Source of the DNA: Meghimatium bilineatum
Taxonomy: Eukaryota; Mollusca; Gastropoda; Stylommatophora; Philomycidae
Length of the DNA stretch: 64,000 nucleotides
Direction: 5' to 3'
NCBI GenBank assembly: GCA_034231615.1
Contig: CM067298.1
Coordinates: 5,325,799-5,389,798, forward strand
Shown: piece after piece, positions 1,457 to 61,854 of the stretch
Layout: every line of letters begins with the position of its first letter
Position numbering within the stretch: position 1 is the first letter of the stretch
Position numbers and translations under genes: made by a program
Notes under the pieces: generated by a model
Databases searched by the model: none
The model's input: only the letters and a program-made list of their open reading frames with translations
Told to the model about the DNA's origin: nothing

Positions 1457-1532
1457 CTAAATATATTTTGAGTCATTGTCTGTGCAATGTATCACAAATC
1501 GATATGAACCTCTTTCAACAACAAAATCACCA
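1457..1532 (-). CDS. exon e24, terminal exon with stop
   Basis: Acceptor atgattacag. Reads GDFVVERGSYRFVIHCTDND, SKYI, then TAG at 1459-1457. No GT donor precedes the stop. Phase 2 entry fits e23 (AG+T, Ser). Bases below 1457 would be 3' UTR, which soon runs into a LINE remnant; I saw no clear AATAAA on this strand nearby. Confidence 0.65.
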
Positions 1533-4500: not shown

Positions 4501-7500
4501 GCTGTATGTCATAAATATCTACAAATTTATATAGCATCATCAGAGCTGTATGTCATAAATATCTACAAATTTATATAGCATCATCAGAGCTGTATGTCAT
4601 AAATATCTACATATTTATATAGCATCATCAGAGCTGTATGTCATAAATATCTACATATTTATATAGCATCATCAGAGCTGTATGTCATAAATATCTACAT
4701 ATTTATATAGCATCATCAGAGCTGTATGTCATAAATATCTACATATTTATATAGCATCATCAGAGCTGTATGTCATAAATATCTACATATTTATATAGCA
4801 TCATCAGAGCTGTATGTCATAAATATCTACAATTTAAATGGTAGTTTCAAAGAAAATCACCTCCATCTATAAATCTAACTAGTTAAAATAACTGTATGGT
4901 CCCATATATTTAAAGTAAATTTACTTATACTTTTTCAAATCATTCTGTAATCTTCTTCTTCTTCATCATTCAATCTCAAACTTTCATTGAACCTGCCTTT
5001 TAGCAGAACATAGGTCCCATTAGATTTCCAGCAGGATATAGTCCAGAGAATGAAAATGTGTCGTGTCTCCATTTTATTTGCACCAATGACCAACACAACC
5101 ATCTTTGGTGGTATTACTTGCATCTGTAATGACCATATTTGATCCCTGGGAACTTTGTTTATCTCCAGAATTATGAAAATTATTTAAACAAAATTATTGG
5201 TATATTTACATTAACAATATTAAGTACCTGTAAAATGACAGTGTCTTCACACAAGGTTCCCAACCATACTGGATTATATGGACAATTTGGTGGTAGGTTA
5301 TTTGTGACACAATTTGCTGCTTTTTGTTTGTCCCTAAGTTATACAAGAAATAAATAAATATGTCTATATTTTATTTAATTCTCAGCAAATAAGCAAGTAA
5401 ACAAATAGCATAGCAAACGTGAATATCATCTTCTAATGAAAGCATTCATCTTCTTTAGGGAAGAAAAGAGGAGAAATGCAGCAGCTCAACTACGCAGAAT
5501 AGCTAGAAAGTCAAGGGTAGACTAAATACCATCTACAGTGGTTATCTCATGCCCAAACTGAACAAGGGCATTTGTGATCAGCTTTCTAGTAATTTATGAA
5601 CTTGTAGTCAAAATCATAACTCGAGCTCAATTTTAAAATTGATGTAATAACTGGTCATGATCACTTGTGATGGATGAATAACAACAACAACAATGAATAA
5701 GACATTGTTTTCATTCAGCTATTGTTTAATTGTTAGACATCACTAATACATCCAATTGTGCCAATAGTACAATCTGAAAGCAAACTGTATGCAAATTTAT
5801 GCAAAAGAAATGGCATTAGCCTTCTTCTTCTTCTTCTTCTTGATTAGAAACTGGCCTCACAGCACGTGGGGCATTCCCATAAGTGCTCCGCCCTCTGTTC
5901 CAGCAGCCATCCGGCTCGGTGTTTCAAGTCTAATGCCGCCAAAACAGACGTCGACATCAGGGCACAACTCTGGCCCTTGCGACAGGTTTCTTTGTTGTTC
6001 TGCCCACCCATGTCATGCCCATAACTAGTTCAAGCACAACATCGGCCTGTCGGAACAACATGGTAACTGTTATCGAAGGTGACGTGCTATATGAAGTTTC
6101 TATAAGAAGATAACCTCAATATAAAGGCATGTCATCTATTAAGATTTTCTGTTGCATGATTGGCTTGTCTAGTGAGCCATTGGTGAGTCTCACAGACGCA
6201 ACCACATGCGCAAAGCATTAACTGCATTAGCCCAGCCGACTGACTAAGCCAAAAGTTTACAAAGCAATGATACTTCCAGGGCTGTTATACACTGGTGAAA
6301 CATGGGTAGAATACAGATGGCATGGGTGAGGAAGCTGAATCACTGTCACAAGACTTGTTTCAGAACTTTAATGAACATCAGGTGGCATGATAAAATTCCA
6401 GATATCACTGTCCTTGACAGAGCTGATGTTCCTAGCATTGACACTACTCTGATACATTTAAATATTTGTTGAGTGGTGGAACTTATGCCATATCATTGTC
6501 TACAAGAGATACTTCTAGTGGAATGCAGAAGGGCATACATTGTCATAGTGGTCACAAGAAACATTACAATAACTCTGTAATGATCTCACTGAAAACCTTT
6601 GATTAACAAAATGATAAATTGTTATACAAAACTCAATTAAATGTCACCCTACAGTACCACAAAATATGCAGAATCTTATTTTAAAAAGTAGAAATGAGGC
6701 AGCTAAACAGCAGAGAATAGCTAGAAAGACACAGGTGGATCAAACAGCATTTAAACTGACCATACTATGCCCAGTTTGTCCAAGGATCTTTGTGGTAAAG
6801 AAATTATTTTGACTGAGAAATAAACTCACACATAAATCTGATAATATAGAGATGACTGAATAATGTAGTATAAATGTAGCTACAAAATAGAGATGACTGA
6901 ATAATGTAGTATAAATGTAGCTACAAAATAGAGATGACTGAATAATGTAGTATAAATGTAGCTACAAAATAGAGATGACTGAATAATGTAGTATAAATGT
7001 ACCAATAAAAAGACTATAAAATGAAGTTCTCATGACAGAACCCTGCAGTAGAAACTTACCCACAAGATTGAGACACAGATGATCCTACATCACTTATGCA
7101 TTTCTGAATATAAGTTACAGCATCACCACATGCTATATTTTCATTAGCACAGAGATCTTGGTAAACTTTAGCTGTTAGAAGATAAAATATCACATAGATC
7201 TTGGTAAACTTGAGATGTTACAAGAGAAAATAGCACAGTTATCTTGGTAAAATTTGGCTGTTACAAGAGAAAATAGCACAGAGATCTTGGTAAACTTGGG
7301 ATGTTACAAGAGAAAATAGCACAGAGATCTTGGTAAACTTTGGCTGTTAGAAGATAAAATATCACATAGATCTTGGTAAACTTGGGATGTTACAACAGAA
7401 AATAGCACAGTTATCTTGGTAAAATTTGGCTGTTACAAGAGAAAATAGCACATAGATCTTGGCAAATTTTGGCTGTTAGAAGAGAAAATATCACATAGAT

Positions 7501-10500
7501 CTTGGCAAACTTTGGATGTTACAAGAGAAAATAGCACAGAGATCTTGGTAAACTTTGGCTGTTAGAAGATAAAATATCACATAGATCTTGGTAAACTTGG
7601 AATGTTACATGAGAAAATAACACAGTTATCTTGGTAAATTTTGACAGTTACAAGAGAAAATAGCACAGTTCTCTTGGTAAACTTTTGAAGTTACAAGAGA
7701 AAGAATAATTTTATTGAACTTTATCAAATAGAGATAAACTTAAGATTTTCTTCTTCTTCTGCGTTCGTTCTCAAACTCCTACAGATTAGCAGGATGTAGT
7801 CTGGAGAACGGAATGTGTTGTGTCATGGTTTACAGCATTTCTGCGATATCTGCGCCTTTCGGCCTGACACATCCGACTTCAGCATGGCTTTGGGTCACTG
7901 ACCCTATATGGGATGGGACAGCCAACTCCATCCCATAACCTCCTTAGTTGCCTTTTACGACATGCATGGAAGGTAAACAGTGTCGCTATTCTTTGCTCCC
8001 CTTTCGGGCCCGGTAACACACGGGCGAAGAATTTCTTAATTGTAATAATTTTATAAATAACTTGGTAATAAAGTATTCCGGTCAAAATGGCGAGTGAGAA
8101 TGTATGTGTTTCTCTCAGTGTCAGTTTAAATCGGATATTCCTCCTGAAAACAACAGCAAACTACAGGAGTATTGTGCCAAGAAATTTCTATGGATGTGGT
8201 GAATAATTCATATTGGAATTAGCGAGTGTTAATTCAGTATTACCCTCATGTCAGATAACAATCTAACAAGTCGGGCTACAACCAGCAAAAGCAACCATGA
8301 CAAAACCAATACCCAAAAGCGGTGATATGCAAATATGTTCAAATTATAGAACAAGCGCATTGATCAGCTAAGCCAGTAAAATACTACTGCACGTTATAAT
8401 GAAAATAATACATAACAAGATGGAGGATGAGATCCACAAAGCGCAAGCAGGTTTCAGAACTGGCAGAGGCACTAGAGATCATATATTTAACATGAGGATG
8501 GTCATAGAGAAATGTAGAGAGTATAACATCGAACTGCACGCATGCTTGCTTCATAGACTACACCAAAGCATTCGACTGTGTCAATCACCATCAATTATGG
8601 GAAATAATGAACGATATGGGTTTCCCAAAACACATTACATGACTAATAGCAGAGCTGTATAAAGATCAAGAAGCAGCGGTAAAAGTTGAAGTTGCAAGAT
8701 CAGAGTGGTTCAATGTACAGAAAGGAGTAAGACAAGGCTGTACCTTGTCTCCATACTTGTTCAACATCTATGCAGAAAATATAATGAGAAACATGAGACA
8801 AGAACCAATGAAGCCTGATTTCAGACCCATAAATATAGGAGGGCTGCAGATACCAGAAATTAGATATGCAGACAACACAGTGCTATTAACAACAAACGAA
8901 CACGGCCTACTGAATATAATTAAGTCAACCCAAAAATTTGAGCAAACAGCAAAACTTGTTCTTAAATATGAAAAAGACAAAAATAATGGCAACTGACAAA
9001 ACTAAATCAAGACCCAAAATTAATATTGAGAACTGCAATTTGGAAGAAGTGACACATTTTGATTATTTAGGAACTAATATAAACGATGCGGGGGACTGCA
9101 CAGTTGAGATCAAGAGAAGAACGGCAATGGTGCTGGGAAAATTAAAACAGATAAAGAAACTATGGCAAGGTACTAACATAAAAACAAAATTGTGTTTACT
9201 ACGAACATGTATATTTCCTGTGGCGACATATGGATGTGAAGCATGGACACTAAATAAAACAGTGGCCAAGAGAATAACATCATTTGAATTAAAGTGTTAT
9301 AGAAGAATTTTGAGAATACCATGGACAGCGAAGAAAACAAACCAGGAGGTGTTACGAACAATTAACGTCCAGGAAGGCTGGCTTCTGAACACTATATTAA
9401 AGAAAAAGCTAGTTTTTTTCGGTCATATTAAGAGACACGACGGCATGGAGAGAGTGTTAATGGAGGGGATGATAGAAGGCAACAGGGGCAAAGGCCGACC
9501 AAGACGCCATTGGACAAAAGACATTCAAGAATACCTGCGCATGTCACTGGAAGATGCAGGGCAACTTGCTCAAAAATGCTGAGAATTCAAGAGATCCATA
9601 GGAAAGACTACGTTCTGGAAAGAATATGTCACTTGATGATGATGATAATAAAGTATGTGTATTCATGTATTTATGGACTTTTTTTTACATCGGCCATGTT
9701 CTCAGAATGAACAGCCTAAGAATTCCCAAGCAGTCACTATATTGGGTGCCACCTGAAGTAAGAAGAAGAGGGAGACCTAGAGAAACTCTATGAAGAACCA
9801 TTAATAGAGAAGGCATGTCAATGAACCTAAACAACACGCAACAATTGAAAGACCTGGCAACACAAAGAAAGAAATGGAAAGCTATGGTTTCTGCCCTATG
9901 CGCCGCCTATAGCCCTGGAGGAACATAACATTTATGGAAAAGTAATAGTTTGTTTGTTTGTTTGTTTTTTCGTTCGCTCCATTGTAACCATCACGGATAT
10001 CCGTGCGATTTCCGCCGGGAGCGTGATTACGTTGTGCCACCGTTATGCGCCTTGTAGGCCTAGCACATCCGATTTCGGCATGCCTTGACAATTCGGGTGG
10101 GCTACCCTTAGCCTGTGACAGCCTCTATATCTGTCTCCAGGCACGCGTAGTGGAGACTCTTCGCCCAGACTATTTTCTTGCTCTTAGTCTGACTCAAACG
10201 AGGTGTTCCACTGTCTATGAACTTGTCTCGTGTAATTGGACGTGCTGTGCCTGTGCCCATTGGGTACTGAACCGTTTCTCATCCATGAGCCTGGTTCCTT
10301 AAGGGGAAGAACTCAACAGAGGAGTTGGACCCTGGCTCTTTCGCCCTCTTAGCCGAGGTGTCATTCACCGACATCGTGTACCCCTTGTCCAAGTTCGAGT
10401 CTCACACCACGTGTTTGAGAGCAAGGCGTTCTCGAGCTGAGCGTCCTTGTCCCAATAGCGCCTGAGCCCATCAGGTACTGAACCCTTTCTCTCTTCAAGT

Positions 10501-13500
10501 GTATTTCCGGTGTAGGAAAACCTGACAGTAGAGTTGGGCCAGGGCTAAATCATTGTCCCTTTTGTGCCTGAGCACAGAATCGAGTACAGAACCCTTTCTC
10601 TCTGCAAGTTACTTCCGGTATAGGAAACCTTGACAGTAGAGTTGGGCCAGGACTGCCATCGTTGTCCCTTTCTTGCCTACACCCATCGGGTACAGAACCC
10701 TTTCTCTTTGCAAGCATATTTCCGGTTTAGGAAGGCTCGACATTAGAGTTGGGTTAGGTCTTTTGCTTTACCAAACGCCGATGGATGGGTCTGGGTCTCT
10801 GCCTGTTAGGAACTCTGGTAACTAGAATCCCGTCTCGAGCTGACGGAGCTTGTAGTTCCCTTTCCTAGGGACTTTTCACTTTCTATTTGCAGTTCGCGCT
10901 GCCCTCTAGCGCTGTTCTGCCCTTTCATTGTTTCATTGTACTCTGTGTGAAACATATTTGTCTCTCGCCATGCATTTACCTTTACGTGCATTTTACATTG
11001 GCCGCCCCTCCAATGTTCGGACTGGACTGACTAGCTTCACTGTATGTCGACAGTGTTGCTATATGTGGTGATGCTGGTGGTGTCGGAGATATTGTCTGTC
11101 TCTTGTGCAGTCAAATCTCTTTCCATCTGCTACCTCCACATTCTCGGACACGATCCCCAAATGATTTGGCCAGAATCAGCACGAGCTGCTGTATTTCTGT
11201 TTCCAGGGTGCACCACGTGGAGGTACATTTGGGATCTTGGTTATCTGCTAACCCTGGGTCCGCCTAGTGCAATGCGTTCCCTTTGCACCCCAAAAAAGTA
11301 ATAGTGAAATATAGGCCCTAGTAGGCAATTTGTAATGACACATTTTTTGGAATAGTAGGCCTAATTGCAGAACATATCCCTTACTACTTCCTGTTCAGTT
11401 TTTCAGAATTTTTACCTTTAAACGTTTTTATTGTTTTGAATTGTTTTATTGTTTATGTCACTGAGAGATTCCACTTTTTTGTGATGTCATTCTGCTAGCA
11501 CATATCAATGGTTAAAGACCATCGATAAATGACCATAGCAAGAACACACTTGTTTGTCTCCCTCACCACGAAGGGATGGGATATGTACTAGCATTAGATT
11601 TATTGAAAACACTATACCTAACCCTGCCCCCTCCATCCAAGGGTCCTAAAATCTAGCAGTATCCTGCAGTTGTACTAATATTCTGAAAGTGAGGTAAGTG
11701 ACCGTATTATCTTAGACCTAGCAATAAAATGAAAACAATGTGGAAACCATCATACACTACCAATGAACATGTGCATTGAATCTTGTTTTGTTGACATTCT
11801 GCTATAATAATGAAATATAGGGGGTATGCTTTGTGGTTATAGAACCCATTTTTAAATCAAAAGTTGGTTATGCGATTTGCAAATGTGTATCTATAAATCT
11901 TAGTTAAAAGTGAATTTCATGCTTGGGTTGTCAGGCCAAGAGACGGGAGAAAATAATAGCAACAGTGTTACCTACCATGCATGTCGCAAGAAGTGACTAG
12001 GGAAGTTCTGAGGTGGAGCTGGCTGTGCCATATCAGAACTGTGGTGACACGCCTGAAATGCTCATGTTAACAAGCCACTGGTTTAGCAACACTTATCCAA
12101 AAACTAGAAGTAACGTACATTGACTGGAACTGAGTATAGCTAATTCCTCCCTTAATGAGATTCACTACACCAATTTTTTTAAACCAATGATGTGGTATAC
12201 AATGTGTATTGTCAATAAGATCAATACAGAAAAATGTATACTTTGAAGTAACTAAAGTTGAACATATTTATATATTGTTGATTCACTGCAACTTACAATT
12301 TTCTAGAGTACTAGCCAGATCTGCATTTCTGTCATCTGCTTTGCAGTCATGAAGTATTGCCTGACTTTTTCTGAAAATAAAGAAAATCATTGATCAGCAT
12401 AATCATATGGTAAAGTAATATAAGATTAATTATGAATCAGTGTCATTACATGTGGTTTTATTTATAACATGAATCAGTGTGTTATTACTGATTATATCAT
12501 TACATAAGATTAATCAATGTCTGGCTCGTGGCAGAGTGGTTCAGTGTGCATTTGTGATGGTCAAGGTACCGAGTGCATCCCTGTGACAGATAATTGTGCA
12601 TCAGGAACATTCAAAAAGCAATGGTAAACTACTGAATGTATTTATATTGTCTAGAAAATCACTACAGCCAAAAAGTGCTGGTTGATGGCCACATCCTGAA
12701 TAGGATAAGCTACCAATTTTTTAAAAATTCATTACGTACAGTTTTACTTGCAAGTATTCTTCTATACACTTCTAAGATTAGGCTCCTGAAGTTTTATCAA
12801 AATAAAAATTACCAACCGCTACTGACATAAATGGAACTATAGTTGTTAACTTGGTGAACAATGAACACACGTGAGATTCAGTGAATAGCCAGAACCAAAT
12901 ATGCTATATGACATTATATTCATCTGTTCATTTATCCTTTTTTTTTCTCATGCCCATGTGTTGCTGGGGCCCGAAAGGGGAGCAAAGAATAGCAACACTG
13001 TTTACCTTCCACGCATGTCGTAAAAGGCGACTAAGGAGGTTATGGGATGGAGTTGGCTGTCCCATCCCATATAGGGTCAGTGACCCAAAGCCATGCTGAA
13101 ATCGGATGTGTCAGGCCGAAAGGCGCAGATATCGCAGCAATGCTGTAAACCATGACACAACGTATTCCGTTCTCCGGACTACATCCTGCTAATCTGCAGG
13201 AGTTTGAGAACGAACGCAGAAGAAGAAGATCCTTTTTTCTTATTCTTCAATTCAGTATTTTATCATTACAATCATGATATGACATTGCACTATAGATTAT
13301 TAATTGTGGATCTGTCTCACCAGACTGTAAAAAAAAAATTATGTTTTATGATTGTCACTGTCCATGGTTATTCATTTTTGTCAGTGAATTTGCACTCTAC
13401 ATGCAAAAATAAATATGGTTGTGAGTCTTGGGTAATAACTTCAGCAATGGAAAAGAAAATATCAGCATATGAAATGACATGCTATAGAATGGTTAGAAAA

Positions 13501-16500
13501 TATCAGCATATGAAATGACATGCTATAGAATGGTTAGAAAATATCAGCATATGAAATGACATGCTATAGAATGGTTAAAAAATATCAGCATATGAAATGA
13601 CATGCTATAGAATGGTTAGAAAATATCAGCATATGAAATGACATGCTATAGAATGGTTAGAAAATATCACTCTTATGTTGTGTTATTAAGTTCTTAAAAA
13701 CATTATCTTGTCATTGTACTTTTTTTTTTTTAAATCGGAATATATGAAAGCTGCTAAAAATGTGAATTGGGGAAAGATAGCACACGTTTATTGGAGTAAG
13801 ATGGTGAATTCAAACTGTATGAAGAAAATGTTGATGTTAATGAGGAAGTTTTAGAAGCCGATCTAAAGCTGAAAGAGATTTATAAATATGGTTATAACGA
13901 TCATAAAACCTTACAAAAATATTATTATTAAAACAGAACTTACAAACTATTTTTTTTCAAACTTATTTTCCTGAGTAAAGTTACAAAACTAGGTCTATCT
14001 ATTTATTCTATCTATTCTTAGCACACATTTCCACAATGCGGTTTGCTAGACCTGTTGCAGTGGTGATCTCCTTCAATTTTATAATGGTTGACATCACCTT
14101 TTTTGCCTGTTCCATCTTGCCTCATAAAATGGAGCAAGATAGGTTGTTTTTTTTAAATTGAACTTTTTACATATATTCAAAAAATATAATTCTAATGTCT
14201 ACAAGTGGCTGTATATTTTCAATGCTCTCACTAATATTATATTGATGGGTAAACTATACACTGATGGCAGTTTGGTCTCTCATAGTTAGGTCAAGTTGTC
14301 AAAATATGCTAAAATGCAATAATTGTGTCGTCTCGCCCTCAGCTACCCTATTTTTGATATATAACAAGGCGCAATGATTTAGAAAAATTAATCATGGAGG
14401 AAAAAATTCCAAGAAAGAGAACAAGAGGCAGACAAAGACAATGATGAACATAGGATATTGAAGACCTTCTAACATGACACTAGAAGAAGCTGAGCAGCTT
14501 TGACAAAACTGAGAGGCTTACAGAATGAAAGTAAGAACAAAGTTTAGCAAAGAACATGTCACATAGATAGATATAAAATGTTATTCAATTATTTTTATTG
14601 TTAACACCCCACTACTTTTCTTTGTTCATATTGTCTATGCTGAGCTGAACTATAACACAGAAACTATATCAACATTTGTTGAGCAGCTTTTGCTATAATT
14701 TGGTCAACTCTGAGTTCTGAGAACTTGAAAGAATTAGATACATTTGCATCCAAAGTAGAGTGTATTATTTAGATAAAGAAATATATTTTAATGTATGAAA
14801 ACTGATAATTCCATGAAAATAATTTGTAGAAATAGAATTGCTCTTACGCGCAGAAAGCTGTCGTGCTGAATTCACTGTTAAGTGCTAGTTGGGTGATCAG
14901 ATCTGCAATTTTCTCTACAGGAATGTTGATGCTGAAAGGATTGTCTGAAACAGAAGCATTAGATATTTTAGCATTCACTGTCATCAGTACATTAGTTCTG
15001 TTGGTAAGTATATTCATTTTAATCTCCACTATCTATTCTATAAACCTGTAGCCCATCAGGGGCGCCATATTTGATGTATTAACACACTGAGTCCTCTAGC
15101 AATTTCTATCTTCAAAGATGCAAAGGAATGAGAAAAGATCTTGTCTTGTCCAGTTCGTGATATTAATCTCCACACAGAAAGTGTTGGCTGATGAATTAAT
15201 AAAGTGCCATGCTGAGTGATGTTGACAATCATGTTTCTCCACAACTATCTGTCTCTTGTATTGCTAATAAGTTCAGTTGGTGACATTCTCTCGTGCCACA
15301 GTGACAATCCATCAACATATTTTTCTCATTGTCATCCTTGTCTCTTCTCCCCATGACAGTTTCAACATTTATTAAATGTTTGTGGATTTTTGGATTATGG
15401 ATTTTTTCAATATTTTGTTCTTCTTATTAATAATCTAAAAATCATCACTGCCTTGATCAGAATGTCTTGTCACTGCCTTGATCAGAATGTCTTGTCACTG
15501 CCTTGATCAGAATGTCTTGTCACTGCCTTGATCAGAATGTCTGGTCACTGCCTTGATCAGAATGTCTTGGCAAGTAAATATAATTGCATTTACTTTCACT
15601 CAGGTCCTATGGATAATGAGTTGGTTGGTTGTTGATCCAGCAATCCATGGATAATGAATTGGTTGCTGATCCAGCAGTTCATGGATAATGGATTGGTTGG
15701 TTGCTGATCCAGCAGTCCATGGGTAATGAGTTGGTTGGTTGCTGATCCAGCAGTCCATGTATAATGAATTGGTTGGTTGCTGATCCAGCAATCCATGGAT
15801 AATGAGTTGGTTGGTTGCTGATCCAGCAGTCCATGGATAATGGTTGGTTGCTGATCCAGCAGCCCATGTATAATGAATTGGTTGGTTGCTGATCCAGCAA
15901 TCCATGGATAATGAGTTGGTTGGTTGCTGATCCAGCAGTCCATGGATAATGAGTTGGTTGGTTGCTGATCCAGTGGTCCATGGATAATGAGTAGGAAAGC
16001 CTGTATTTACTAGAATGATATAAGGATAGATGTGTTTATACCACTCCATAGCCCCATGACTCATCAGGGTTATAGGGGTACTAAATTTAATGCATCAACA
16101 TACAATGACCATCAACAATCTCTAATTTCAGCAATGCAGATGACTGAGAAAAAAATCTTGATCTATCCAGTCTTTGATGTTGTTTTTCCATGATTTGAAT
16201 TGATCACCTCTGCTTCTTTTACCTGTGAATGTTCCCTGCAAGATTGTTTATAATAAGTAATCATGTCAGCATACAAATCCAAACCACATACGTTTTCGTT
16301 ATTTCACTATTGAAAACAATGGGTTTTTTTGTACGTTTGAGCGACTTGTTGAAAGTAATGTAAAACTACATCCAGTATTATAATAAATATGATTTAGCTC
16401 TTGAAATAACTCTCGGGATTTCAAATTCATTCAGAAAATGCAAACATTCATTGTGACTCATTGAAAATGTCAAAATTCTATGTCACTGGATCCTTTTATA

Positions 16501-19500
16501 CACATTTTTAAAGACTGCACCAATGTTAGTTAAAAAATGTGCTGATATTCTTGATAATGTGAGATAAGTATGCCTAGGGTTGCTGGTCAGCAAAGTCTTG
16601 ATAATGTGAGATAAGTATGCCATGGGTTGCTAGTCAGCAAAATCTTGATAATGTGAGATAAGTATGCCATGGGTTGCTGGTCAGCAAAGTCTTGATAATG
16701 TGAGATAAGTATGCCATGGGTTGCTGGTCAGCAAAATCTTGATAATGTGAGATAAGTATGCCATGGGTTGCTGGTCAGCAAAGTCTTGATAATGTGAGAT
16801 AAGTTTGCCATGGGTTGCTAGTCAGCAAAGTCTTGATTATTATTTTAATATTAAATTAAATACAGTATATAAATACATGCACACAATGATGTTCTTCATA
16901 CATTCTATAAATAAATAAATAAATACAACAACTATAAATACCTATACACAATGAATTCCTCAATGTGGCATCAAGGCTATCAATCAAATCTTTGGCAAGG
17001 TCAAGATATGCGGAGTTGTTTGGATTTGAGTAACTGACAATAAAACATGAGTACTGAGATGATAGAGTGCTACAAGTTTCACTGATGCTGTTGCCTAATA
17101 AGCTGTCTCGAGCTGCTGAGAGGTAAGAATACAGGCATCCATCAATGCTACCAGCCTGACATGACAAGTCTTTAGGAAGGCCAAGAGAAGCCATCTGAGG
17201 AGATAATTATATAGAATTATCTACAATGACATGCACATTCAGAAAGTCTGAAAGTCTCACTATTAGCCTATCTCATTAACCATTATGCGACAGTAAACTC
17301 TATGTAGGGCCCATGCCAATATAGTGAGGTTTTCTTTTTGTTATAGGGCTCATGCCAATATAGTGAGGTTTTCTTTTTGTTATAGGGCTCATGCCAATAT
17401 AGTGAGGTTTTCTTTTTGTTATAGGGCTCATTCCAATATAGTGAGGTTTTCTTTTTGTTATAGGGCTCATGCCAATATAGTGAGGTTTTCTTCTTGTTAT
17501 AGGGGGTTAATGCCAATATAGTGAGGTTTTCTTCTTGTTATAGGGGTTCCTGCCAATATAGTGAGGTTTTCTTTTTGTTATAGGGCTCATGCTAATATAG
17601 TGAGGTTTTCTTCTTGTTATAGGGTTCATACCAATATAGTGAGGTTTTCTTCTTGTGAGAGCCCCACAGTTTTTCACCTGTACAATGGCATTTCCCGTTA
17701 TATTGCAACATTCAGATAATCCAGCAATGTTCACCTCACTATGGAAGCCAGATGAGCTCCAGTCCTGATCATGATGCTAGCTGTCAATGTATACATTGTA
17801 CACCGCTATGAACGTGTGGTAGATGGGATGTGGTGAAAAGAAACTCTGTGCTACATTCTCCCACCAGGATTACCTCAGAAACACTCATAGGACTTCCTCC
17901 ATGGACAGAATTAAAGTTGTTCTCACTTTCCATCCCCATAGTTCTGCTGAAGACAGTGGACTTCATGCTGACAACAGGTTGACAATTTAAAATTAACAAA
18001 ATGCAGAAAGAGAACACAAACACACTAAAAATGCATGTATAAGTCGTTCATATAAATATACATTATAATAATAAGGACCTATGAATACATTTTTCACGTA
18101 AACATACATTATAAAACAGAAAACAAAGTATTGGAATAAACATTTCATACCTTCTTCTTGATGACAGTATTAGCTTGAACTTTCTGTGCATTGCTACATA
18201 ATTCTGTGTTCTTCGTCACACACTGATAAGCTTGTTTCTGGATACTATGTGTAGAAATAATCAACTCATCAGCATTTCCTACCCATATTAAATGTTCTAC
18301 TGAAAACTAAGAATATATATATATATATATATATACATGTTTTTTTCCAACAATATGAATTACAACCAATGCAGTACATGTACATACATGGAGTGAACAG
18401 GAGACTACAGTAAAACAGCATACTTCTACATCTCATAAATCTGTGTTATCAATTTTGTATTTCCGTTTTATCCGTTCTTTTTACATTTCACATTTCCATA
18501 TCCTTTGTCCTCATTTCTTGTATTTCCATGTTACCTGCCCGTCTTACATCTCATATTTCCATGCTAGTGTTCCTTCTTCCATGTATGATTATTGTAACCA
18601 CTCACATTCCAATCAATCTCATGATTTTGGAAGACGCGTGCACGCAGGCTGTGAGGTGAATCAATGTCAGATGAACAGATCTGGTTCAAATATCATCCAC
18701 TATCTTCTGATTAAATTCAATCATCAGACTATGTCTTTGGGATAGTCAAAGGATAATGACATAAACTACACGAATTTTAGCAGTAACAAAGTGATCAATC
18801 ATAGCTGCAACTTCCCTATGAATTGTGTATTTTCTCTTAACTCATACTTTACTCATGGGGTTGTGTCTGTGGTTCTCAATAATGGTTCACTAGACAAACC
18901 AACCATGCAACAGAAACCCTTAGTAGATGACATGCCGTTATATTGAGGCTCTCTTATGGAAGCTTTATAGCATGTCATCTATACAATTATAGACCCCCTT
19001 TGAGTAGAAGGCTCCTATCAATAGGCATTGCACTAAGCTGAAAGCTGAAGCCTCCTGAGTGTGAAAGAAAGCTATAAAAACCACTCCACTGCACATAGGC
19101 TGCTTACTATTCCTGGGGTTCTCAAACAAATAACTCATATTTATCTGGTTATTGTATTCAGAGATATCAATACTATAATCTATTCTTTTAGAACAGAAAC
19201 TCATTCTCCTACATTTCTTCTGCAAACGTTACTAACATAGTAGTAACACTAATAGCACATTTGTGGTTATATACTTCAAGAAAACTATTAAAAAACTTCT
19301 CAGTACAAACTGGCAACCAGAGAAATATTCAGCATAGAGAATTGATATTATCTTAGTACAAATTAGTACATATTCTTTTCTTTGCACAAAGAACACATAC
19401 TTGCATATGGTATCTTGCATGTTGATGAGTTTTTGCTCCATAATAATATCACATCCTGCATTATCAACTGCGCATTCTTGCTCATAGCTGCACAGGTCAG

Positions 19501-22500
19501 GAGTTAACCATGGACACCGGTCACCTGCTGCTGCTTGAATCTGTTTCAAAGTATTTTGAATAATCTTGACATCATTATTTTCTGGGTCACATGAGGTAGT
19601 GTTTGTTGCAATACAGACCATCATATCCTTGAGTTCCCTGTAAAATATAAAATTATGATGTACCCAGACTTACCCTCGTATTTCTTTCATTCATTAATAT
19701 CATAGATGATAAAATAGTGTTGCTACCAGTAATATCATCTATATATATAAATGGCTATTCCATAGCTCTGAATCTTTGCTATGTTCTATACACTTAACCA
19801 TTTCGTAAAGTATACAAATGAAATTTTCCACATTTATAAAATATTCCAATAAGAAGGTATTGGCGCTAACCGAATATAAAAATACTGTCCAGTTATCCAG
19901 CAAAAGCTGATAAATGATACAATTGGTCAACCGTTTACCTCTGACTGCTGATCAAAGGTCACACAAATGTGTCAACAAATGCATAGACCTAAATAACATT
20001 TTTGTATTTCAATCACCGTTTAAGGGTTCAAAATTATTTTTCCTTTGCCATTTGCTAATGCTGCGTATATTTCTGTCTATTAGCGAATTGCATGATACTG
20101 TTTATATCTGTATTTCTGTTGTGTTGTTAAATTACAAAAGAATCGAATGTAGTATTTTTGGGTAAACATTGTTGTCACTATGTTATGGAAATTGTCTCAC
20201 ATGAGAGTACACAAACTTATTTTATAAATCTACAATTTTACGCTGTCTTGCGTATGTCTGGAATAGCTCAATTGGTACAAACTTTATCTATTATGGAAGG
20301 AACTGTGGCCATGGCTGTTTGATCAAAGTGATAATTTTTTTATTATTATTTTTTAAATTATTTTTGGATTAATATGTAGAAACTGAAACATATCAACGTC
20401 ATTGCTGCATTAAAAGAAAAATATTTGTATCTATTCTATTTTTCATTTTGTTTTATTCTCACACGGGCAACATCAGGCATTGCTTCTAGTAGATGATAAA
20501 ATAGTGATGTTGCCAGCAATATCATAGATAATAAAATATCGATGTTACCAGTAATATCATAGATAATAAAATATCGATGTTACCAGTAATATCATAGATA
20601 ATAAAATATCGATGTTACCAGTAATATCATAGATAATAAAATAGCGATGTTACCAGTAATATCAAAGATGATGAAATAGTGCTGTTAACATGTATATTTA
20701 TTAACCACCTCCATGTAACTATCTGCTACTAAGGGAAGAGAATGCAAAGAAAAATATTGGTAGATGAGGATCAAGGTATGTAGACTTGCTTATCGGAAGG
20801 AACCTACAAGAAAACACATATTAATTAGCATTTTTACCAAAAGGCCTTTATCCAGAACTCAATATAACATATCATGTAATGAGTAAAGGATGGCTCTGAT
20901 AATGATTACAGTTAAATGAGAGCATATGCTAGAAGTCTGACGTGTGTTTTCTTGTGTTTCTAGTGATAAGCAAAAATTCATTGTTTTGCATTTCCACTGT
21001 ATGTCTGTCGAATTACAGTTTTGCTGTAGTTGTAACATATTACTGTATAGATGACAATCACAACTCCCAAAACAAATATGACCCAATGCTAACCAATATT
21101 AAATTAACTGTGCAAAAAAGAAAACAACAGATCTCTAGTTCAAACTATATGAGAAATTTTATTGATTTATTGAGGATGAATGCAGACACAGAAGAATACT
21201 TACCTTTTTATTCAATGCACAGCCAGAAGACAACATTAATTGACAATACTCAATTAACATTCTTCACAAAGTTGAAGTGGGAGTTGACCACCATCAATGG
21301 GTGGAGTTATTGACACAATTTCTGATCAGAAAAATTACCTTTATATTCAGTCCAGGACATGTGGAGGTTGAGGGTAAAGCATGAGCTGATACACTGGCAA
21401 GTATGGCAACAGTGTCAGTTAATCAATTTGACATAGTTAATGCAGTGAGGCACCTCATTCCCTCAGAAGATTTTCAAAAGTGTGAATGATATTCACTGTC
21501 AATGCTGTATAAGATTGTTGTAAGAATTGGAACAGCCCATAAAAAGAAACATAATAACATTAAATATATATGAAATGACTAATACACCAACACCAAACTG
21601 CAATTGTTAGCCATTACACTCTGATGGATTTATTTAGATGGGGATCAGAGCACCTATGGATGTGTCTGGTTAGTTAGTTAGTAAGTCATTGAATCATCAT
21701 TACTGCAAACTGGACATGTCCATAGTTGCTCCAATCTCTCCATGAGTATATCTGCCAATACACTTCTGCTGACAGTACAGGTCCTATGTTGGTTGACCAT
21801 CATTCTTCTGCGCCCTCCAAAATGTTCACTTCTAGCAACACCGCATTTCAAACATTGATCTTTAATCCTGGTCATTGAAAATGAATCATCATCCACACTA
21901 GTCTCACTCTCGCGTGCTGTATCTCTTATGGAGTTAAAAATGTCAGCTCGATTCATTGCCCCAATGCCCATACATGTCTGGTGATACCCTTGAAATAAAG
22001 TCAACATACCAGAGCACCTATGAGACTTGTCGGGTGATACCCTTGAAGTACAGTCAACATAAAATCAATATAACAAGCACATTTGAAGATTTTTTTACAA
22101 CATAAAAATACTTAGCAAGAGTGTGTTATTTCTTACAGACATTTCATCCTCCAAATTAATGTGTCATCAGTTGTTGAGAGTAATCCCAAGTTGAAGTTAG
22201 CTAAGCAGACAAAAGCATTGCCAAGTATGCAGACACGATTTTTTTCTTGAATATTTGGACAGATCGGAGGCAGTGGTAGGACCACATTTTCACATATATC
22301 CTCCACCTTGTTATACAGATTCTGTTGATTGTAAATAAACATGGTTATAGCATATAAACATGGTTATAGCATATAAACACGGTTATAGCATATAAACACA
22401 GTTATAGCATATAAACATGGTTATAGCATATAAACACGGTTATAGCATATAAACACAGTTATAGCATATAAACATGGTTATAGCATATAAACACGGTTAT

Positions 22501-43500: not shown

Positions 43501-46500
43501 TCATAGATTCAAAAAAATAACTGCTACCAACAAAGACTTGGATGTTTAGTATATAGAGGAAAGTATATAATAAATGACTGCAGAAGGAAAATCTTGGAAC
43601 AACCCCTAAAGGAAGTAATGAGGTTGAGAAAGCATGGTTTGATATTATGCAAGCTGTAAGGATGTGGCAATGCATCCAAAACAACAGAAACCTCTCTCGT
43701 ATATTATCTTGCTACTCTCAGATGTGACTACAATTATTAAAATTGTAATAACACTGTCAATATAAGACACAATTGTAATAACACTGTCAATATAAGACAC
43801 AATTGTAATAACACTGTCAATATAAGACACAAATGTAATAACACTGTCAATATAAGAGACAATTGTAATAACACTGTCAATATAAGACACAATTGTAATA
43901 ACACTGTCAATATAAGACGCAATTGTAATAACACTGTCAATATAAGACACAATTGTAATAACACTGTCAATATAAGACACAATTGTAATAACACTGTCAA
44001 TATAAGACACAATTGTAATAACACTGTCAATATAAGACACAATTGTAATAACACTGTCAATATAAGACACAAATGGTTGCTAAATCAGAACTTACTGACA
44101 GTAAGTTGTAGAATCTGCTCTTGTGAAGTCAAAATTGATATTACGACTAAGGGTCTGGGCTTTCGACAACTGACATGCTGGCTCAGATACATCCCAAGGT
44201 TCTATGAGGAGAGAGTACCATTAATATCACAAGTATAGTTATGTGTAGACAGTATTGGTTATTAGTGATTAAACTGTTTTACCGCACAAGTAGAACCATA
44301 ATTGTTCAGACTCCATTAGTTGATGTTGTGTTACAAGTAGAACTGTTCAAACTTCCAGCAAGATTTAGTCCAGAGAATGGAAATGCACTATGTTGCTGAT
44401 TTTTTTTTACCAATGGCCCAATACATCCATCTTCAGTGGAAGATAAAGGATATACAAAATACACTTGTTTTGGTGCATTGGTTTTTATATCTATTTATTG
44501 CCTGTATGTCACAACGCTAAAAAGAGGAGTAAAGAATAACAACACTGGTTACCTTCCATGCATGCCATAAGAAGTGGCTAAGGAAGTTTTGGGGTGAAAG
44601 TGGCTAACCCATACAATATAGTAACAAATTGATCCAGAAACTATGCTGAAGTCAGATGTGTCAGGTGAAAAGGTGCAGATATCGCAGTTGAACTGTAATA
44701 CATCACACAAGGCATTCTGTTCTCTAGAATAAATCCTGCTAATCTGCAGGAGTTAGAGAATGAAGGAGAAAAAGAAGTCAAGCATCTGAGACACAGACTA
44801 TATATCTATCTATAGGTTATATATAGATATGTATGCAGTAACATTGTTTCATATAAAAAAAACAGTGGGAGAACTAGTAGGTATGTTTCCTAATTTCTAG
44901 ACAACAGTATTATTGTTGTGCTATAAGAAATATAATCTATGATCCATGATGATGATGGATGTGGCTCACAAGACCAATCTAAGCCACAAAGAGGCTTCCT
45001 CAATATGTACAAGGAATCACTGGCTCACTTGTACAATCATCATGTGCTGTTGTGTGTATTCTTAGACAAGAAGCCCTTGAACTAACTGATATCACTTTCT
45101 CCTTTCTCTTTAAGCTATTCTTGATCTTTCTCCTTCATGCAACATGTTCCATGTCATCTTGTTTCCATGATTCTGTATCAATGCCTTTATCATGAATATC
45201 ATGATTGCATATGTCTGTAGTGGAGTAGAGGTTGACCTGGAGATCCTTTCAAAGTCTGTAATTCTACATAAAGAAGAAACTTTGATATTCTCCCTTCTTC
45301 CATTTTTTTTCTAGTATGTTCCTGCCATGTCAGTCTATTCAGACTGAGCATAGAAATACTGTGATATTACCTGTTATTTCCAATACATCAGTACTAGTGA
45401 CTTTGTCTTGTTACCTAACTCTAAGAATTCTACATTGGCATATCTTGTGAAAGTTGTTTAGTGATAGCCCAATATAGGTTGCCCATATTTCATTGTCATA
45501 GATGTGGATGCTAAGGACACAAGTCTGGTTAATCAGGAGTTTAGACTGTATAGTTAATTTTATATTGGAACAGACTGGCTGTGGTAGATCAACAGCTTAT
45601 TGGATGAGTGCTGCCCAGTTTGAGGTGGGCGTTAGTTGATCAATAATACTAAAAGTGTCTCCCACCAGTGGAAATAGCCCATGAACCCTCTGTCTATGCC
45701 AATTGACAAGGACTTATAACCAATAACTGCCACCTCCCGATTTGATTTCGAGACCCAAGGGATGGAGTATGCTGCACCACAGCACAATGCTCGGGAGCTA
45801 TCTATCTATGTGATGTGTCCTTTACAGAACACTGTTCTCCCACTGACACTCTGTAAGCCTTGTAAGCCTCTCAGTTCTGTGCTAGCTACCCAGCCTCTTC
45901 TAGTGTTATGTTTAGAAGGTTTTCAATATCCTGCGTCCATCACAGTCTTGGTCTTCCTCTTGTTCTCTTTTCTTGAACTTTTCACTCCATGATTAATCTT
46001 TCTAAACCATTGTGTCTCTTTATATGCCTGCAAGAACACTATATAAAACAATGAATAGTCAAAATTTGAGCAAAACCTTCTATCCCCTTTGGAGTGCTGT
46101 TGATACAAGCAGCAAACTTACGATTGCAGTAAAAGTATGGAGTGAGATAAGGGCAGCTGTTTCCGAGACTGAGTTTCAAGACAGATTTTTGTATATCGAC
46201 GTGTGTTTCCTGTCCAGTTGCATATGAGCAGTTTTTGGAATAGTGTGATGAACATTCTAGAGAATACTTGGCTCTCCTGAAATATGTAATGAAAAATATA
46301 AATCAAAACAAAGAATGGACCTTGTGACTAAAATAAAATTGTGTCTGAATAAATTTGACATTGCCAGAAATAAATTTGCTACATCTTACAATTAGGGCCT
46401 ATGTAATTTTGTACTTATAAATAAAAAATTAATGTGTACTAACAAACAAAAAAGGGTTCCAAATGAGTTCTGTGGAAAACAAAATACTGTTTACTTGATC

Positions 46501-49500
46501 AATGAAATAGCAGAAATGTTTACTAAATCTTACTGCATGGCTTTTTGTGTGGCAATGAAATAGTAGTAAGTATTTGACTCTGACAGGTGACCATTGACTT
46601 CATGTTTACTTTCTTACAAAACCGTAATGTTAAGTCTAATGCAAAACCTAATATTTACCCTATTTGTGTAAGTGCTCATGCCTTTATCTCTATGAATCAT
46701 TTATATTTTATATCTCTGTCTGTGACAATCAATAAAAGGTAATACTGCTAGTAAACTGTATGAAAATATTACTTACATAGAAAACGTGATGAAGTTTTAC
46801 TGCACGATGACTAACACACCATCACTATCGGAAGTTCACGTGAAATAATATACACAATGGAAAACAAGCAAAATCAAACAAATAACAATACACATGACAT
46901 ATTCAATGTTTTAACCAGAAGGATTTTATCAAGATACGCACAAAACATCAAAAGATGATGAATAGAAATGATTACAACAAACAAACATGTCCAACTGCAT
47001 TTGGAAATGAGATGCTGGAAGAACAGGAACAGGGTGTAGGCCTACATTAAAAATGTAAATATAGGTGGAAACGAAATGATCAAAAAATAAATGATGGAAT
47101 AAAATGAATTAAGACAAAGACCACATCAATCGAGAGCTAAACAAAAGAGTGGTTGGAATTTAGTCCAAAAGGCCTGAGGTAAGATGATTTTCTAGAGCGT
47201 ACCTAGATCTATCATCGGTGGTGCAGGATCTGATGACAGTGACCTGAATATCAAGAGCACCATGATGGCCATCACCATTTAAAGTGTGTGACAATAGGAG
47301 TAGGTGTTCTGTGCCTGATGGCATGAAGATGGTTACAGAAGCAGTCACTCAATCTTAAGCTGGTTTCCCCAATGTACTGCTTGTTTACATAAGATCACAT
47401 AAATAACATTACGGGATTCACGTGTAAAGACCTCATTGATGGAGAAAGCGGCCTTGGGAAATGAAATGGAGCACATCTCAACCACATAAGGGCATGTATA
47501 GTAATGGCCACATGAGCAACGAACAGTACTAAAATGGTCGGGAACAGAAGACTTACGGTGGCTATGGACCAAGATTCAGAACACTCTTTCGTCTAGTTAT
47601 CAGCTGGTGCGGTCTTTGTCTTTATTCATTTTGTTCCATCATTTATGCCATCATTTTATTCGTTTTGTTTCCACCTATATTTACATTTTTATGTACTTCC
47701 TGTTCCTGTCCTTCCGATGTCTCATATCCAAATTTCAGCTGGAATGTTTGTGTGTTGTGATCATTTCTATTTGTCGTCTTTTGATGTTTTGTATCTTGAT
47801 AAATGCCTTTTGGTCAAAACATTGATTATGTTATGTGTATTGTTATTTGTTTGATTATGCTTGTTTTCTATTGTGTGTATTATTTCACATGAGCTTCTGA
47901 TAGTGATAGTAAGTTAGTCATTGTGCAGTAAAACTTCATCACCTTTTTTTACATAAGTACTATCTCTCTCTATCTGTGCAAGAGTTTTCCTACTCTGTTG
48001 TAGTTGTGCTTCTTATTTAGAAGTAACTATATAAATGGTATGTCCTCAGAGATGCTGGAGTAAAACAACAAACTATAGCAAAAATTAGAGATAAACAAGA
48101 TTTTTATGGCATGTGATGAGAAAAGAAATAACACTTGAACATTTATTAACCACCGGAAAGATCAAGGGGAGAGGAGACAGGAAGACATGGTTGTCACTTT
48201 GGCACAAAAAGATGTCACCAACTGAACTTATTTACAACATATGAGACAGAGAATTGTGGTGAAACTTTATTACCTGCGCCATGGCAGGTTGTGTTTAAAT
48301 GGTTGTGTTAGAGGCTTAATGGAGCTTAACTGACTGTTAGAGGCTTACTGGAGCCTAACTGGCTGTTAGGGGCTTACTGGAGCTTAACTGACTGTTAGGG
48401 GCTTACTGGAGCTTAACTGACTGTTAGAGGCTTAATGGAGCTTAACTGACTGTTAGAGGCTTACTGGAGCCTAACTGGCTGTTAGGGGCTTACTGGAGCT
48501 TAACTGACTGTTAGAGGCTTAATGCAGCTTAACTGACTGTTAGAGGCTTACTGGAGCCTAACTGACTGTTAGAGGCTTAATGGAGCTTAACTGACTGTTA
48601 GAGGCTTACTGGAGCTTAACTGACTGTGTTAGAGGCTTACTGGAGATAATGAGTTAAGTAACACTGCATATTTTTATGTGATGTAAATCTAGGAAACCAC
48701 AAAATTACATGCTAAAGTTGGATGCTTTTGACAACAAGATGCAGGTATCACTATCAAGTTGTAAACTATAGCACATTTCATTCTCTGTACTTTATTATGC
48801 TCACTCTGCCAAAGTCAGATGCATTGGGCCATTAGCACAAATAAATTGGGAATAACATATCTCTGTTCTCTGGACTACATCCTGCAGGAAATCATGCAGT
48901 ACCATTATCCTGCTAAAAGAGATATCTAGCTGGAGCTTAACAACAAAACACTTGAAAAAAAATTATGTTAACAAGCAAGTATTTAAGAATAAATGAGCAA
49001 ATGAATGAACACCAAAACTACCTGTTACTGGATACACCATGAGGAGGTGCTCTTAGAGTCTTGGCTAACTGATAGCCCTGAGTTGCATGAAATTAGTGCA
49101 GAATTATTTTCATCCAAACAGGATCTTTAAACTCAACATATTCAAAAACATTAAGCAACCAACATAATTTTCTAAGCAAGCAAAATGTATCTCACCTGCA
49201 TAGGGTATCTGGCTCAATGTCTGCATAACTACTCACTTCACCATATTCTTCAAAACATTTAGCCATCTGTAAGAGATTATGCAAAACATGTAGCCATCTG
49301 TAAGAGATTATGCAAAACATGTAGCCATCTGTAAGAGATTATGCAAAACATGTAGCCATCTGTAAGAGATTATGCAAAACATGTAGCCATCTGTAAGAGA
49401 TTATGCAAAACATGTAGCCATCTGTAAGAGATTATGCAAAACATGTAGCCATCTGTAAGAGATTATGTCAGATCTCATAAACAATTCTCCAAAACCATAG

Positions 49501-52500: not shown

Positions 52501-55500
52501 ACCCAATCAGTTGGTGTGTTGGTGGTTGCATCACCAGCATAGTGAGAGCTGCTGCCACGCTTCTATTTACAATCTTCTACTTGATGTTGTAGTGGGTTAA
52601 GCAGCTGACTTCACAGATAATTTCTTGCTATTTTGGTAGGTCACAAAACACACCTGTTTGTTTCTTGTGTTACTGGGCCATCTGTGTATATTATTGTATC
52701 GTGTGGCTTTGAGTGCTGCAGTATGAGCTCTGTTCTGTTCGCAGCCCAGTCACTGCACTCTCTTCCCATCTGTATCACCACTGTTGTCAATAACTTTCTT
52801 TGCTAAATGCCATCCATTCACAGGCTCTTCCCACTTCCTCCAGCTCACAAACTCTGAATAATACTATTCACGTTCAACGGACCTAGAAATATGGAACTGG
52901 CATCAGTTCAATATTAGTATGTAAAAACATTGGAATGAATAGGACAGATTAGAACTCAAAGATTCAACTTTTAAATTTGCATTCATGTACTTCAAACAGT
53001 AATTTATTTGTTCAATGAATACATTACAGACATGATTACCATTGCAAAATCACATGTGGCCTCACTATCTTGTAGAGGTGAGCAGTATGATTTCTTCTTA
53101 TCTGCTGCATTCAATGTTACAGCACTGTAGATAGCAAGCTGAAATTTTGACAGTCCATCTGCACATTCTATGACAAGTGTCTGTGTTACATCCAGCAGAA
53201 ACACAAAACTCCTGTATGAAAACATAAATATGAAAGATCATAGTAACTGTCTATTAAAGCTATTTAGAAAAGTATATAAAATATAGGCCTATATAAAATA
53301 TATATAAAATGTATTAAAAAAAACTCTTGTTCTTATGCATTCAGCATCTGCAGCGATGTTATATTGTTAGGCCTGTCATCAGGGCAAAGTCTACTGTCTT
53401 CTCCAAGTCAGAGCAGCTACCCCATAGCTTTTGCCTCAAATCTGTATCCTCTTGCCAATTCCGCTGTCTGTGCTTTTTGCGTGTTGGGCAGTCTTGAATT
53501 TAAACACTGTTGTTACTGCTTGTTTACCTGTTTAAGAGTGCAGGGAGACTTTCAATGTACCTATGTTTTTCCAAATATAGCTATGGAAATTTATATTTAG
53601 AAACACTGTTTTGTGGTAGGGAATAAAATTATGTACAATAACTTTATCTCTTGAATATTTCATTAAAAAAATGAGAACAATTTTGTGCAATGGAAGACTA
53701 TCAATGCTGACCCGAATTTGAGTGCTGCGATGTTATATTATATCGAACCAATTCTTTTTTATGGGTGTGAAGCATGGACTGTAAACAAATAAATTCAAAA
53801 TGAATTGGAAGCTACAGTGATGTGGTTTCTGAGAAGAATTATGAAAATACTATGGACAGCTAAGAAAACTAATGCAGAGGTTCTCATTGATGCTGGTGTA
53901 AAAAGATCAATCATATTAAATGTTAGGGGCAGACAGTCAAGGTATTTAGGGCATGTGCTGAGAAGAACACAGCTTGAACACTTAATAAACATTGTAAAGA
54001 TTACGGGGAGAAGAGACAGGGGATAACATAGAGAGAAGTTGCTAGATGGACTAGTATTATGGCATGGGAGAAGGTCACTAACTGAGCTTATTGACAACAG
54101 AAGAGACAGAGAGTTATGGAGAAACATAATCACCTTGGCCATTCGGCATGACACTTGATTGATTGAATGACAATAACTTTATCTCTTGAATCATTTCATA
54201 ATTATCTTATGTTAAAAAACTTAATCATGTTTGTATTTATAATTTCTTTGCAATATTATCCATATCATTTATTGATGAAACATCAAGTCTGAGATTTGAA
54301 GAATTCGATATTAAGTGTAGTAGTAGCAAAACTGGTTCATTCAATCAAGTGCTATGCTGAATGATTTCATGATTTAGTTCTCAATAATTGAATGACAAAC
54401 ATGAACTTACTGACAAAAGTGGGTTCTGCTTGATATCGAAGCAATTGGAATGTTATATGGAATAATCAGTGCAGACATTAGATATGCCAGTTTGTCCAGC
54501 TGACATACAGGTGTGTCTCTTCTGCTGCGATCTACAATTAAAAGAAGCAAGTACAGACAATGATGGTTGTAATCAGAGTTTGATCCAACATGGTTCTTAT
54601 ATGCACACACAAATGCTATGTATGTAAACATGCACACACATTTGTGTGCATGTACACACACACACACATACATATACATATATAGTGAATAATTTTCAAA
54701 GGTTCATAATTTTAATTGAACAACATTTCAACTTGGAAATCTATTAGACAATTTATTTAAAATGTATCATCATTTAGTTTTAACAATCAATTTTAACCTT
54801 GATCGTCAAAGAAATTCCAGTTGTCCATTGATTTTGACTATAAATTTAAAAGCGTTTTTAATACAATATTTTTATATCAACAAATTTTCCAACAAAGCAA
54901 TTTTTCAATCAATTCTTTGGGTCCGTTTTATTTTGTATTAAAAAACAAAGTTTTTAATTTGATAATGAAACATAGTTGTGGAAATATATGTCTTCAAAGC
55001 AAATAATGTATGAATTTAAAAAGTTAGTATAGTTTTAAAAAGGAAACAGCTGAAATCCAACATGAAACAAGCAGGTAAAAAACCTAAAATTGTATGCTAA
55101 TTTGCACTTAGGACCTACATATATGACAGTTGCTTAATTAATTCCCACATTACTATTTCTACTAGAAATTAGTGAATGAAATCAAGTATTACAGAAGTAG
55201 GAATTGATACATGAGATTCAGAATGTGAAACAAACAATTGGGTTTTCTCAACTACTAAAATAGAAGCAAAGTAGTTGAGATATATACGGCTTATCCCACA
55301 AATATATTGAGTATGAGAATGAAAATAGAGAAAGTAACAGCAATTCTCACTTGGCGGGTAAAACAACTGCAAACAGCCAGTAATTCTGTTTATATTATTT
55401 TAAGAATATGTGTGGTATTATTTATAATGCAAAGCAACCATAGTTTCCACTGCAATCTGATAATAAATTAATGATAAAGAAAAAGACCAAAAAATTCATG

Positions 55501-60336: not shown

Positions 60337-60388
<52 letters not shown>

Positions 60389-61854: not shown

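Follow-up and report, generated by a model that had tools for sequence, protein, structure and literature searches.

Long secreted or cell-surface chains of small disulfide modules are a usual design of durable matrix, coat and binding proteins. Exon-shuffled extracellular modules of the EGF and CCP kind are classically 1-1 exons, and GDNF/GAS1-type helical cysteine domains (PF02351) are small helical disulfide domains that occur in tandem. The cysteine rhythm of the DUF19/T20D4.11-like domain (PF01579) is like that of the module described below. For C. elegans, DUF19 is tabulated as a large family of 51 genes encoding putative secreted proteins of 140-220 aa with a domain of unknown function (PMC3534327). 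In the SCREP survey, 98.4% of refined SCREP sequences matched some InterPro consortium database (PMC6262176).

The locus studied here lies in a window of 64,000 nucleotides, the whole stretch of DNA analysed, which is eukaryotic in character (long introns and retroelements) and has 36% GC. Like SCREP-type proteins, its product is a tandem array of one kind of disulfide-type cysteine module with diverged repeats; spacing, intron positions and module similarity all identify tandem repeats of a cysteine-rich domain. SCREP sequences are mostly matched in InterPro, whereas Pfam, the only such library tried, offers no credible match to the module seen here. As in exon-shuffled EGF, CCP and related domains, the module is a symmetrical exon unit, but its borders are 2-2 rather than the classical 1-1, with the same intron phase and position at 10 of 12 borders. 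GDNF/GAS1-type proteins share the tandem arrangement of small domains but differ in their spacing. The C. elegans DUF19 proteins tabulated in PMC3534327 have 140-220 aa, whereas the present product strings together 11 or more modules. The architecture of the array is itself of a known kind.

A coding chain of 22 exons

We rebuilt the minus-strand chain independently and obtained 22 exons running from 61854 to 1457, with 1044 codons, a TAG stop and no phase clash. All 21 introns are GT-AG, ten of the 21 donors read exactly GTAAGT or GTGAGT, and acceptor scores range from -2.2 to 5.0. The 1044-residue product contains 68 cysteines and nine N-glycosylation motifs; 112 of its residues are acidic and 79 are basic. 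Across the last 20 exons the two other frames contain 43 and 86 stops, and the frequency of G at codon positions 1, 2 and 3 of the chain (0.283, 0.180 and 0.144) is coding-like. These results confirm the observation of an intact-looking, real gene. Because its first exon begins in phase 0 and has no start codon, the gene appears to extend upstream, leaving the 5' end open; a signal peptide is likewise absent from the chain.

A splice-and-codon DP gene finder, blind to cysteine spacing and intron position and with a residue prior of 5% for cysteine, scored the minus strand at 241.3 (45 exons) and 150.7 (34 exons) under two settings. The plus strand scored 63.0 and 24.1 under the same settings, within the null range. 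In the null comparison, for which the repeat mask differed slightly, the minus strand reached 232.4 with the looser setting and 144.0 with the stricter one, against 45.8±13.1 (maximum 78.9) and 18.1±7.4 (maximum 39.7), respectively, for 40 random Markov-1 sequences derived from that strand. The 45-exon DP chain includes 18 of the 21 donors and 18 of the 22 acceptors used in the final chain. The latter is a partly curated choice, since phase, splice sites and the module pattern served to filter the DP exons: exons were kept if phase and pattern fitted, and some boundaries were moved. Among those dropped were 33253-33097 (minus strand), which fits in phase and has no module pattern, and 11253-11134 (minus strand), which adjoins repeat-like sequence; others were discarded for want of the module pattern or because of a phase clash.

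The preliminary description had given 24 exons and 1054 codons. Its strand, its ends at 61854 and 1457 and its open frame hold, whereas the model supported here has 22 exons and 1044 codons. The shortfall may correspond to two very short 5' exons, ten codons in all, within the 61722-54531 intron. If these two tiny exons are added to the count, the exons earlier numbered e5-e6, e13, e14-e15, e16 and e17-e18 would be our exons 3-4, 11, 12-13, 14 and 15-16. One possible tiny 5' exon lies at 60679-60710 on the minus strand (donor 6.3), and the 22-exon chain does not need it.

Cysteine modules and their spacing

Counted by cysteine register, the product contains modules M1 to M11 together with a partial M0 and a partial M12. 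We set the register by hand from the spacings because MAFFT alignments disagree on it, and the module limits used in the similarity test were also drawn by hand.

All exons lie on the minus strand. Exon 1 (61722-61854; acceptor 4.0, weak donor TTTGG/gtaata at -0.9) carries part of M0, and exon 2 (54411-54531) the remainder to C6, ending in a phase-2 intron straight after the cysteine. The next cysteine lies 16 residues on, in the 8+1+7 register, although this exon was picked with the module pattern in mind. M1 is divided between exon 3 (53040-53211; C2 to C4) and exon 4 (49196-49266; C5 to C6, donor 7.6), and M2 between exon 5 (46122-46276; C1 to C4, donor CAATC/gtaagt) and exon 6 (44096-44201; C5 to C6). 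Exon 7 (42565-42768) holds M3, which has lost C1 and has one extra cysteine. Exons 4, 6 and 7 each end at a phase-2 border after a cysteine, as do exons 10, 13, 17 and 19 below. M4 in exon 8 (39131-39398) is irregular, lacks C6 and ends in phase 0, and M5 comprises exon 9 (38109-38205), with C2 and the segment downstream of it, and exon 10 (30875-30983; C3 to C6).

Two modules occupy single exons: M6 in exon 11 (29507-29743), a whole six-cysteine module of the form C-x7-C-x24-C-x5-C-x7-C-x20-C, and M8 in exon 14 (19401-19637), with seven cysteines. Between them, M7 is formed by exon 12 (27494-27581; C1 and C2) and exon 13 (22137-22321; C3 to C6). M9 begins in exon 15 (18151-18244; C1 and C2), for which DP preferred an acceptor at 18237, and continues in exon 16 (16942-17194), which also carries M10 to C3 across a module border without an intron; exon 17 (14848-14944) supplies the remainder of M10. 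The first part of M11 is in exon 18 (12297-12370) and its C3 to C6 in exon 19 (7060-7171), followed by the partial module M12 in exon 20 (5228-5333). Exon 21 (2112-2251; donor 6.6, weak acceptor at -0.8) and the final exon 22 (1457-1532; weak acceptor at -2.2), which ends in TAG, have acceptors that were not DP's choice. Together these two exons (1457-2251) encode 71 non-modular C-terminal residues that look strand-like by eye and have no Pfam match. A candidate extra half-module exon at 21204-21261 on the minus strand carries C-x7-C in the border phase, with a donor of 7.8 and a weak acceptor of -1.3. We found no credible partner exon for it; the module may have decayed, or it may be skipped or used alternatively.

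The cysteines are usually spaced C1-x7-C2-x(22-26)-C3-x(5-10)-C4-x(5-10)-C5-x(11-24)-C6-x(8-10)-next C1, with exceptions in M3 (C2-x18-C3), M5 (C2-x32-C3) and M4 (C1-x10-C2 and C3-x15-C4). The motif C-x8..10-C-x7-C-x20..26-C, picked after the protein had been seen, occurs six times within the 959 residues encoded by the last 20 exons, a count reached in none of 20000 residue shuffles (maximum 2). All six cysteine positions are present in four of the 11 modules (M2, M6, M7 and M8), and M7 and M8 carry a seventh; in the other seven at least one of the six has been lost, and odd cysteine counts are common among the modules, an awkward feature if the disulfide domains are to be self-contained. C1 is missing from M1, M3 and M5. 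The C6-x16-C2 gap at M0/M1 and M2/M3 equals 8+1+7, so the register outlives the loss of C1, and the M2/M3 gap, unlike the M0 exon, was not picked with the register in mind. M10 retains only C1, C3 and C6, and its C1-C3 distance of x32 equals 7+1+24.

The modules are homologous, but barely, as their similarity beats shuffles in which the cysteines stay fixed. With the other residues shuffled in this way, the 11 modules have a mean pair score of 7.49 against 1.94±1.25 (z 4.5, 0 of 200 shuffles as high). Of the 55 pairs, four exceed z 2.5 and 48 have z 1.64 or less; the best, M2-M8 (z 3.8), has 'G[DN]xCPxLTP' in common. MAFFT, run with several choices of rows, never kept the cysteines in a consistent register, and a first HMM built from seven modules recovered above threshold only its own seven members.

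These results bear on several statements of the preliminary description, whose interpretation they partly support. A modular chain, as it proposed, is borne out by homology beyond the cysteines and by the exon units, and the divergence it noted, with likeness mainly at cysteines and a few motifs, is evident in the pair scores and the unstable MAFFT register. Its count of at least eleven six-cysteine repeats stands as an array of M1-M11 with spacing beyond chance, but six cysteines are a consensus that only four of the 11 modules show in full. Its formula, C-x7-C-x24-C-x(5-8)-C-x(5-10)-C-x(15-24)-C, captures the general rhythm, although the ranges are wider and M3, M4 and M5 depart from it.

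Phase-2 introns at module borders

Ten of the 21 introns are in phase 2 directly after a cysteine codon, and each time that cysteine is C6 by register. They occupy 10 of the 12 module borders from M0/M1 to M11/M12, which makes the module an exon-bounded, tandemly duplicated unit. Two borders break the rule: M9/M10 has no intron, and M4/M5, where C6 has been lost, has a phase-0 intron close by. Away from the module borders, phase 2 occurs in one intron only, within the C-terminal segment. Within modules, the place and phase of introns vary; those of M7 and M9 are in phase 0, 13 and 15 residues after C2.

The rule has a p of about 7e-12, a naive value because the exon filter sought exons ending near a cysteine in the border phase. 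A fairer measure is that nine of the ten border donors were already in the DP chain, which was blind to the rule. This rule, which is new here and adds to the preliminary description, is the strongest evidence for an exon-bounded duplication unit and also supports the gene model.

Domain searches and fold

Searches of Pfam with single modules, with joined segments and with the 11 modules one by one (maximum E 10) gave no credible match; HMMER filters discard most matches above E of about 0.1, and the M0 exon at 54531-54411 was outside the scan. The best match was TSR (E 0.061) in one of the 11 modules, 11 bits below the cut-off. Over the 11 modules taken one by one, two non-credible families were returned, and joined segments gave RE_NgoPII (0.084), Clat_adaptor_s (0.12) and DUF5496 (0.15), none of them credible. 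EGF, CCP, TSP1, kringle, LDLR-A, Kazal and Kunitz domains all lack a credible Pfam match here, in agreement with the preliminary description, which had recognised no domain, and the GDNF/GAS1 model in Pfam matched none of the modules or segments scanned. Judged by its sequence, the module is uncatalogued where Pfam is concerned, and 'new family' should be read as 'not in Pfam' only.

Searches of the PDB by sequence and by profile, the latter from an imperfect alignment, gave a best E of 0.38, at chance level, and MHC class II matches there (E 0.47 and above) were also judged to be chance. NCBIfam returned three chance matches for the 11 modules, Rfam gave no match, and IMG/VR, queried with M8 and M9 plus a portion of M10, gave five pattern matches, none of which was confirmed. 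In the open literature, the titles and abstract openings of the matches listed contained no recognised description of the module; among those listed for DUF19 and molluscs, most were apparently prefix matches to DUF1943.

The C2-C3 segments show helical periodicity at 100 degrees (z 2.4; 6 of 400; eleven segments and nine angles) and none at strand angles. Two AlphaFold runs had mean pLDDT values of 46.1 and 45.8 and pTM values of 0.31 and 0.38. For M6, with a 7-row alignment, helices were placed at 5-14, 20-32 and 54-68, and for M8, with no alignment, a helix at 21-38; the mean pLDDT of 46 is in both cases too low for use, and all that the two models have in common is a helix following C2. 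Foldseek with the first model gave six chance matches, the best with E 3.9.

Interpretation and alternatives

We consider it probable, though well short of certain, that the locus represents the 3' portion of one large multi-exon animal gene for an extracellular protein, built as a scaffold-like chain of tandem disulfide modules that arose by duplication of a phase-2 exon unit. The product would be a secreted or cell-surface protein in which at least 11, probably thirteen, tandem disulfide modules of ~60-90 residues precede a short C-terminus that is not modular. The many cysteines, the nine N-glycosylation motifs and the lack of any known intracellular domain suggest, at the level of sequence, an extracellular location. 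Between its C2 and C3, each module would form an amphipathic helix. Modules would have been born by duplicating an exon unit flanked by phase-2 introns just past the last cysteine codon, and the copies would then have diverged until little was left beyond the cysteines and short motifs. With the helical fold and scaffold role that we infer, the protein would most likely act as a stiff chain of small domains, resistant to proteases, and present surfaces for binding or assembly in the extracellular space. The odd cysteine numbers of neighbouring modules (five in M9 and three in M10; seven in each of M7 and M8) would leave room for inter-module or inter-chain bonds. A bolder proposal, which we hold only as a speculative minority view, is that the modules represent an undescribed family of helical disulfide domains, spread as 2-2 exon units, in which inter-module disulfides make a cross-braced rod, not beads on a string.

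Of the alternatives, the most serious, possible but doubtful, is that the modules are distant members of a known family of invertebrate secreted helical cysteine proteins, either DUF19/T20D4.11-like or among the loosely annotated cysteine-rich secreted proteins of molluscs and arthropods, beyond the reach of Pfam. The rhythm C-x7-C-x24-C-x5..8-C-x5..8-C-x15-C-x8..10-C-x7-C resembles that of DUF19. Yet no module or segment scanned matched DUF19, in searches whose filters drop most matches above E of about 0.1. PMC3534327 lists DUF19 as a large, putatively secreted family of C. elegans, but with proteins of 140-220 aa rather than long arrays.

The remaining alternatives concern the gene itself. 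It is unlikely that two or more neighbouring genes have been joined in the chain, for instance with a gene end at 46039. Read past its donor (46122-46039, minus strand), exon 5 would gain 27 residues in which C-x6-C-x18-C completes a module-like pattern before a TAG; against this, the donor at 46122 is GTAAGT, and a phase-compatible partner with C5 and C6 (44201-44096) ends in the border phase. The read-through is either chance or an alternative short end. Slightly less likely still is that the array is what remains of a once-coding gene in decay; this would account for the missing cysteines as well as for the orphan half-module at 21261-21204. Cysteine loss in seven of the 11 modules, the very good donor of that orphan exon and the position of three splice sites inside tandem arrays would fit such decay. 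However, a frame intact across 22 exons and 1044 codons with GT-AG at 21 of 21 introns makes a pseudogene unlikely, and the codon-position frequencies of G (0.283, 0.180, 0.144) resemble those of coding DNA. If open frames in this repeat-rich region had been chained by chance, short exons would be no surprise; null DP chains themselves average 8.0 and 18.8 exons, and about half of the 45-exon minus-strand DP chain was dropped in curation. With a DP score far beyond all 40 nulls, and with spacing, intron rule and module similarity also opposing it, we regard chance as highly improbable.

On the favoured reading, a duplicated chain of disulfide modules, a well-supported large gene has been left blank by Pfam domain annotation. 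The rule of a phase-2 intron directly following the last cysteine in most modules may reveal diverged copies through gene structure where sequence fails, and, if the module proves widespread, it would name a class of orphan extracellular proteins of invertebrates.

Repeats and retroelements around the gene

Tandem arrays number 39 after manual merging of 69 rows and cover 10004 bases, about 16% of the window; its minisatellites, dense by impression, are often above 90% alike. A fragmented retroelement reverse transcriptase lies at 8372-9710 on the plus strand (RVT_1, E 5.7e-13 on 8643-8996). On the minus strand, 22989-23414 and 26082-26735 are retroelement-type open frames, the second resembling a reverse-transcriptase tail by eye only. 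A strong false exon candidate at 23397-22993 (minus strand) was rejected as retroelement RNase H-like (E 0.0014, under the cut-off). Such frames inside the gene could misdirect gene finders.

Three splice sites of the gene are covered by tandem arrays, at 49196-49467, 38794-39158 and 7060-7702, and because the arrays take them in, the sites themselves have been copied. The acceptor of exon 49266-49196 has six extra copies with one mismatch in 24 each, and that of exon 7171-7060 has nine with one to five mismatches in 24. The donor of exon 39398-39131 has two extra copies, with one and three mismatches; one of these copies falls beyond the array as listed.
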